This document shows positions 28,507-30,030 of a stretch of 35,156 nt of DNA, piece by piece. Below the pieces are notes generated by a model. The model searched no databases, was not told the origin of the DNA, and worked only from the letters and a program-made list of their open reading frames with translations. A program made the position numbers and the translations under genes. The stretch is taken from contig QWRJ01000007.1 of the NCBI GenBank assembly GCA_003670475.1, positions 1-35,156 on the forward strand. The letters run 5' to 3'. Source of the DNA: Candidatus Limnocylindrus primus. GTDB taxonomy: Bacteria > Chloroflexota > Limnocylindria > Limnocylindrales > Limnocylindraceae. Positions within the stretch are counted from its first letter, which is position 1. Every line of letters begins with the position of its first letter.

Positions 28507-29148
28507 ATGAGAAAGTTGCCACTGACTTGGGCGCTTGTCGTTGCAGCGGCGCTACTCCTCGCCGCCTGCGGCTCCAGCACTACGGGTGAGTCGCCAGCCA
28601 GAAACGCAAACGGATGTCCAACGTCACAACCCGCAGCGCTTGCAGCGGGCGAGAAGCGTCAGATTGTCATGACTACCTCCATGGGAGAGATCACACTCCT
28701 CGTTGAGGCGGACCTCTCACCGATTGCGGTTGGCAACTTTGTGGCACTCGCTGAGTGTGGCTTCTACGACAACGTCATCTTCCACCGCATCGCCTACATG
28801 CAGGACGGCATCCCGTTCGTTATTCAGGGCGGCGATCCAACAGGTACAGGGACGGGCGGCCCTGGCTACAAGATCAAGGACGAACCAGTGGTCGGCGAAT
28901 ACGCGCGCGGCGTCCTTGCTATGGCGCGCAGTGCGGCACCAGATTCGCAGGGGAGCCAATTCTTCATCGTCTTGGACGACGGGGCGCAGCCACCACTCGA
29001 GAGTGCGCGAACGTACGCGATCCTTGGTCAGGTCACTGCGGGGATGGACGTCGTCGATGCGATCGCGGGCGTCGAGCGCGACGCGGAGGACCGCCCGGTC
29101 GTCCCTGTCACGATTCTCAGCACCACGGTGAGCACCTCCGCGCCATAA
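28507..29148 (+). CDS. Lipoprotein cyclophilin-type peptidyl-prolyl isomerase
   Basis: Lipobox LLLAACG; NFVALAECGFYDNVIFHRI, FVIQGGDPTGTGTGGPGY, GSQFFIVLDD. Confidence 0.9.
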   Translation: MRKLPLTWALVVAAALLLAACGSSTTGESPARNANGCPTSQPAALAAGEKRQIVMTTSMGEITLLVEADLSPIAVGNFVALAECGFYDNVIFHRIAYMQDGIPFVIQGGDPTGTGTGGPGYKIKDEPVVGEYARGVLAMARSAAPDSQGSQFFIVLDDGAQPPLESARTYAILGQVTAGMDVVDAIAGVERDAEDRPVVPVTILSTTVSTSAP

Positions 29149-29228
29149 GCGACGCGGGCGGGTAGACTCTCACGACGCGCCAGTAGAAGCTGGCAAGAGG
29201 CGGCATTTGCCGCAGAAGTGAGGAGAGC

Positions 29229-29681
29229 ATGGCGACCGCAGTCATTGAGACCACCCTTGGGACGATCGAATTTGAACTCCTAGATGACGATGCGCCGAAG
29301 ACGGCGGAGAACTTCGTCACGCTCGCAAACAAGGGCTTCTACACCGGCGTGATCTTCCATCGCGTGGTGCCAGGTTTCGTGATCCAGGGGGGTGACCCAA
29401 CAGGAACAGGATCAGGTGGACCTGGCTATAAGTTTGCCGATGAGCCGATCACGATGGGCTACGCGCGTGGGACGGTTGCGATGGCGAACGCTGGGCCGAA
29501 CACTAACGGAAGCCAATTCTTCATCTGCCTCGCCGACCTGCCGCAGCTTCCGCCGAACTACACAATCTTCGGCCAGGTCGTCTCAGGGTTGAGCGTGGTC
29601 GATGCGATTGCCGCCGCCCCGTGTGGCCCTGGCGACCGGCCTGTTGAACCTGTAACAATGAAGTCGGTCAGCATCCGCTAA
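29229..29681 (+). CDS. Cytoplasmic cyclophilin-type peptidyl-prolyl isomerase
   Basis: NFVTLANKGFYTGVIFHRVVPGFVIQGGDPTGTGSGGPGY, NGSQFFICLADLP; SD GAGGAG. Confidence 0.93.
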   Translation: MATAVIETTLGTIEFELLDDDAPKTAENFVTLANKGFYTGVIFHRVVPGFVIQGGDPTGTGSGGPGYKFADEPITMGYARGTVAMANAGPNTNGSQFFICLADLPQLPPNYTIFGQVVSGLSVVDAIAAAPCGPGDRPVEPVTMKSVSIR

Positions 29682-29727
29682 CCCCCACCCGCCGCGCTGG
29701 ACGAGCGCGCACGGGAAAAATAGGGGG

Positions 29728-29756
29728 TTGGAATTGGCCCTTCGGCGCGGTATCCT
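29728..29756 (+). promoter_or_regulatory. sigma70-like promoter of candidate sRNA
   Basis: TTGGAA (29728-29733), 17-nt spacer, TATCCT (29751-29756). Confidence 0.65.
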
Positions 29757-29761
29757 AAGCG

Positions 29762-29923
29762 CAGCTGTTCTTGTTCGAAGGCCATGGGTAGGTGGGTTAG
29801 GGTAGTCGCTTTAGGCGACGTGATAGATGCTCTTCGGGCGTAGCTGCGGAACTGACTTGTTCGTTCTAAAAGCGGACCGGCTTCAGGTGGCTCCCTTCAC
29901 GGGGAGTCACCTGATTTATTTTC
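29762..29923 (+). ncRNA. Unassigned structured small RNA, about 160 nt
   Basis: Promoter, nested stems CGCAGCT/AGCTGCG, CGAAG/CTTCG, GTCGC/GCGAC and terminator; no substantial coding frame. Start approximate. Confidence 0.7.
29884..29923 (+). terminator. Strong intrinsic terminator
   Basis: CAGGTGGCTCCC-TTCACG-GGGAGTCACCTG, 12-bp stem with one G-T wobble, followed by ATTTATTTTC. Confidence 0.88.
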
Positions 29924-29953
29924 ATCACGTATTCCCGCTATTCTGCCCCTCTC

Positions 29954-30030
29954 GCGCTCGTAGCTCAGTGGATTAGAGTGTCTCCCTCCGAAGGAGAAGG
30001 TCGCAGGTTCGAATCCTGTCGGGCGCACCA
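29954..30030 (+). tRNA. tRNA-Arg (anticodon CCG), 3' CCA encoded
   Basis: Acceptor GCGCTCG/CGGGCGC, anticodon arm TCTCC-CTCCGAA-GGAGA, T-arm CAGGTTCGAATCCTG, CCA. Confidence 0.95.

Follow-up and report, generated by a model that had tools for sequence, protein, structure and literature searches.

The 6S RNA binds the sigma-70 holoenzyme and templates a product RNA; with a long helix on either side, its central bubble resembles an open promoter. Different RNAs that bind RNA polymerase are present in lineages where 6S is not detectable, examples being Ms1 (Actinobacteria) and CoRP (Corynebacterium) (PMC9130861, PMC11077062). On small RNAs of the class Limnocylindria (Chloroflexota), a group from fresh water and soil that is represented mainly by metagenome bins, our search found no literature. 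The window considered here, the whole analysed stretch of 35,156 nt, comes from the genus Ca. Aquidulcis of this class (NCBI places Aquidulcis in Candidatus Limnocylindria) and encodes on its + strand a structured RNA of about 160 nt at 29763..29922. Both ends are inferred, the first from the onset of conservation at A29763 and the second from the end of a terminator tail at about 29922, with a covariance model (R1, below) matching 29762-29882. We propose that this RNA probably represents a new stand-alone, non-coding structured family of Limnocylindria, which would act in trans through a loop on a fixed, conserved partner. An earlier note, made from the sequence alone, had called it an uncharacterised stand-alone structured RNA, a view borne out by wide conservation, covariation, promoter, terminator and gene order; the sequence strings it quoted all lie where it had placed them.

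Its reported failure to match 6S, SRP, tmRNA, RNase P or a riboswitch class was checked against Rfam 15. At gathering thresholds the window yielded three tRNAs only, and the interval 29670-29960 gave no match at E up to 10, so that the claim of novelty stands; in relatives drawn from each of the three families that carry the RNA, the same search gave no match over it, only sub-threshold noise. The family is nonetheless widespread within its class. A DNA search found matches in 55 of 61 related genomes, and R1, built from 45 distinct sequences, matched 128 of 177 class genomes: 18 of 19 in the window's genus, 92 of 107 in its sister family (f2; a few of these matches being partial, at contig ends) and 18 of 22 in a third family (f5). 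None of the 29 genomes of class families f3 and f4 matched R1, and a core-only model, R2, run on these and on several other non-matching genomes, produced chance-level scores only; nor did R1 match outside Limnocylindria in an even sample of 349 genomes of the phylum. A scan for the core pattern recovered, among the matches listed, Candidatus Aquidulcis, Chloroflexi bacterium CSP1-4 (f2) and a QHBO01 bin (f5). The two foreign matches inspected among those listed, in a Chloroflexaceae bin and in Arthrospira, have no RNA around them and are ascribed to chance. Copy number is normally single. Two bins (G174 and G103) hold two or three copies; with a Steroidobacteraceae label on one and 8% contamination in the other, these multiple copies are likely due to mixed bins.

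Folding of the single sequence is better than that of 200 shuffles (z -3.7), falling to z -1.5 once the terminator is removed; since much of the score comes from the terminator, this is weak evidence when taken alone. The comparison of aligned relatives, on the other hand, shows a conserved predicted architecture consisting of a three-way junction of helices P1, P2 and P3, an apical hairpin P4, and an asymmetric loop between P2 and P4. P1 closes the structure, its 5' arm GCUGUUCU (29764..29771) pairing, with one mismatch, with the 3' arm GGACCGGC (29874..29881); P2 joins 29773..29785 to 29827..29839; and P4 is the hairpin GUCGC-UUUAG-GCGAC at 29805..29819. Over the 45 sequences, 97.9% of the cells in these three helices are paired. 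Two-sided changes occur at 11 pairs and in 86 cells, against a shuffle mean of 26, and the covariation score is 0.32, against at most 0.08 when partners are slid. Taken separately, P1 is paired in 100% of cells, with two-sided changes at two pairs, and keeps seven of its eight pairs in every locus of the genus; the 12 pairs of P2 are 95.7% paired, seven of them with two-sided changes, values that become 96.1% and eight pairs across the three families; and P4, also 100% paired, has two-sided changes at two pairs, its lower count when the third family is included arising because the f5 apical hairpin is misaligned by one position. The third arm of the junction, P3 (GGAAC-UGACUUGUUC-GUUCU, 29848..29867), is more local: each of the 13 genus loci has all five pairs, and A-U to G-C exchanges occur among them, whereas the hairpin varies in the sister family and is lost in the third.

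Several helices of the earlier note are thus recovered, GTCGC (29805-29809) with GCGAC (29815-29819) inside P4, CGAAG (29776-29780) with CTTCG (29832-29836) inside P2, and the GAAC-TGACTT-GTTC hairpin as P3. Its outer helix, CGCAGCT with AGCTGCG, does not survive comparison, as half of the genus loci keep only two to five of its seven pairs, and its 5' arm begins before the point where transcription is inferred to start. The polarity of the RNA follows from the helices themselves: G-U cells far outnumber A-C cells (74 against 6), which marks the + strand as the RNA strand and rules out an RNA from the opposite one. ViennaRNA folds the window sequence from 29763, minus terminator, in the three-way form; for many relatives the fold of lowest energy is not the comparative one. 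An alternative helix, CUGCC with GGCAG (columns 4-8 with 84-89 of alignment A1), is 95.6% paired; it shares the 5' arm of P1 and excludes that helix. Being almost as conserved as P1, it suggests that the outer architecture may switch, and alternation between two outer helix forms is accordingly possible on comparative grounds.

The most constrained part of the molecule is its loop. The G-rich strand GGGUAGGUGGGUUAGGGUA (29786..29804, + strand), with G-runs GGG, GG, GGG and GGG, is near-invariant in 106 distinct loci, and the strand opposite, GUGAUAG (29820..29826), is conserved in alignment A2. Over all loci the loop reads GGGUAGGU(N0-2)GGGUNAGGGUA facing GUGAWAG, and it differs between loci only at one U, at one N and in the second spacer, which may be longer by 0-2 nt. 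The loop motif was itself part of the pattern or model used to pick these loci, so that selection somewhat favours the invariance; the search with R1 alone turned up no other form of the loop. Across the three families 32 of 73 core columns of A2 are invariant while the helices covary, and a near-constant loop beside freely covarying helices argues for a fixed partner. A coding explanation was rejected: a frame beginning ATGGGTAGG is open for 19 codons in the genus, but the 1-2 nt spacer indels of other families shift every frame, and the RNA is therefore regarded as non-coding. As a mode of action, we envisage that the covarying helices would hold the G-rich loop and present it in trans. Its predicted target is a single macromolecule, fixed and conserved, either a protein or a ribonucleoprotein, and pairing of the loop with mRNAs is not expected. 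In a clade without recognised 6S, the transcription machinery would be the first guess for that partner.

The four closely spaced G-runs, which have no duplex partners, occur in all 106 distinct loci, with a second spacer of 1-3 nt. Locked between two helices, they could conceivably fold into an RNA G-quadruplex of two layers, or of three layers with one guanine vacant; quadruplexes with such vacancies exist (PMC8266575). We think this quite unlikely for the present loop, most of whose A and U residues are as invariant as its G residues in A2. ViennaRNA does not prefer a quadruplex when this option is enabled, its parameters disfavouring long-loop two-layer forms. Should one form in the loop, it would be a naturally occurring G-quadruplex RNA of class-wide extent in bacteria, to which a guanine metabolite or a protein could bind.

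A more specific version of the proposal names the partner, and would make the molecule an RNA that binds RNA polymerase, specific to its clade and replacing 6S in function, in the manner of Ms1 and CoRP. Polymerase ranks first among single candidates on the precedent of these RNAs, which bind it in lineages where 6S is not recognisable (PMC9130861, PMC11077062). The Rfam 6S model (RF00013) matches 34 of 151 Chloroflexota genomes, none of them in Limnocylindria, and 0 of 41 relatives, with the reservation that failure to match this model does not equal absence of 6S. This missing 6S and the precedents elsewhere are the sole pointers toward polymerase. Against it, the layout is not that of an open promoter, the arm beyond the loop being only the apical hairpin of 5-6 bp, and in families f3 and f4 neither this RNA nor an Rfam 6S match is present. 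We hold the polymerase assignment only tentatively, as a doubtful refinement of the broader proposal.

Regulation of mRNAs in trans by base pairing, here through the loop, is the commonest mode among bacterial sRNAs (PMC9130861) and has to be weighed against binding to a fixed partner. The near-constancy of the loop over three families would be unusual for an mRNA-pairing seed, a strand so rich in G would not be expected to pair with Shine-Dalgarno sequences, and Hfq was detected in none of 20 genomes, several of them incomplete assemblies. Such pairing thus appears unlikely. Since 6S was not recognised in Limnocylindria and the genomes tested gave no Hfq, this RNA is a strong contender for the part of a global RNA regulator in the class.

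The surroundings of the gene bear on whether it acts in cis. Directly upstream, outside the RNA and on the same strand, lies ppiB (29229..29681), a cyclophilin-type peptidyl-prolyl isomerase gene named from the earlier note and by sequence resemblance; it holds this position in 93 of the 96 loci with enough sequence, among the 106 distinct loci. Downstream, also outside the RNA, is tRNA-Arg(CCG) (29954..30030, + strand), the only tRNA within 700 nt on that side; though often lost, it is found in 38 of 91 loci and in all three families, always as the same tRNA on the same strand. On these counts, ppiB, RNA, tRNA-Arg(CCG) is most likely the ancestral order. Two tandem cyclophilin-type isomerase genes (28507-29681) precede the RNA in the window, the first with a lipoprotein-like signal (LLAACGSS), and a similar pair occurs in relatives. 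One genome of the sister family (G057) has an intact ppiB followed by a plain terminator hairpin in place of the RNA, and two other genomes (G125 and G043) have no RNA behind their best ppiB-like gene. As these few genomes do without the RNA although ppiB-like genes are present, it is not indispensable in a strict sense.

The gene also has its own signals for transcription, as the earlier note had supposed. The -35 hexamer TTGGAA (29728-29733) and the -10 hexamer TATCCT (29751-29756) are separated by a 17-nt spacer (whole promoter 29728..29756, + strand). In all 13 distinct genus loci TTGGAA, the spacing and TATYCT, with one C/T position in the -10, are unchanged, while the spacer sequence is mostly variable, as are the 6 nt 3' of the -10; perfect conservation resumes at A29763, exactly 6 nt past the -10. 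The promoter call is made from this conservation of hexamers and spacing and not from a generic promoter scan, which listed no site. The -35 sits inside a genus-invariant box, GGGGGTTGGAAT (29723-29734), longer than a usual sigma-70 -35, and this extended box may reflect an unusual sigma factor. In other families a different, conserved box precedes the promoter by some tens of nt before the -35, GTTAAGGAATTTTCAC in 59 of 68 f2 loci and TGTAAAGGAATCTTAAC in 17 of 19 f5 loci; it was not found in the window's genus, and is possibly an UP element or regulator site. At the other end, pattern scan and comparison identify a rho-independent terminator (29883..29922), with a stem-loop at 29883-29914 (14 bp stem, loop of 4) and a U-rich tail. 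Counting stems of 8 bp or more that lead into a T-rich tail, 98 of 100 loci have a terminator after the RNA, with many different stem sequences, and one of the two exceptions is a run of N.

These arrangements permit two cis explanations, an attenuator of the downstream gene or a processed 3' UTR of ppiB, and some features suit them: the RNA ends in a terminator and is followed by tRNA-Arg(CCG) in those 38 loci, no terminator was found between ppiB and the RNA, and two outer helices compete. Yet the remaining downstream genes differ in identity and strand, often lying on the opposite one, which leaves no common cis target and argues against a cis-regulatory element; the promoter immediately upstream of the RNA is conserved; and the distance to ppiB varies. 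We consider both explanations very improbable. A riboswitch or leader was likewise rejected, there being no conserved kind of downstream gene and the tRNA-Arg occurring in only 38 of 91 loci. That the RNA is a strongly diverged 6S homologue missed by the Rfam model, as a long hairpin with an unpaired centre in a class where no other 6S was found might suggest, is hardly tenable given its short apical arm and three-way junction, the want of a 6S match at E up to 10, and the lack of any R1 match at typical Chloroflexota 6S loci.

The stand-alone family, proposed to act through its loop, can finally be set against known systems. The RNA has no place among the other housekeeping RNAs: the genome has its own SRP RNA (RF00169, G000:C2:708-806) and tmRNA (RF00023, G000:C43:11-386) elsewhere, and it falls far below RNase P RNA in length and matches nothing in Rfam. 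Sub-threshold Rfam matches to RsmY, istR and the like are attributed to chance. The RsmY-type CsrA sponges (RF00195) do share G-rich loops with it, and one locus reached 22 bits against a cut-off of 57 (E = 0.09), but conserved GGA repeats are lacking here; a CsrA sponge was rejected, CsrA above cut-off being found in 0 of 20 genomes, and a Y RNA likewise, Ro60 (TROVE) being found in 0 of 20, with several of these assemblies incomplete. Chloroflexi-1 RNA (RF01698) is another predicted structured RNA of the phylum (PMC2864571), listed for Chloroflexus aggregans, and has no Rfam match to the present one. With 6S (RF00013; 150-200 nt, present in other Chloroflexota) it shares a stand-alone, rod-like form with an unpaired centre, for which the earlier note had termed it loosely 6S-like. 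That likeness does not hold up: it has no similarity to the 6S model, nor do Chloroflexota 6S loci match R1, and it differs in its 5-6 bp apical arm, three-way junction and invariant G-rich loop. What emerges is a well-supported structured RNA family, in no RNA catalogue, whose alignment, fold and gene order are ready for a database entry. The actinobacterial Ms1 and CoRP differ in length (about 300 and 500 nt) and in phylum, homology having been compared through Rfam only; like them, the RNA of Limnocylindria is lineage-restricted, stands alone, occurs where no 6S is recognisable and keeps a conserved gene order, and CoRP too lies among tRNA genes (PMC9130861, PMC11077062).
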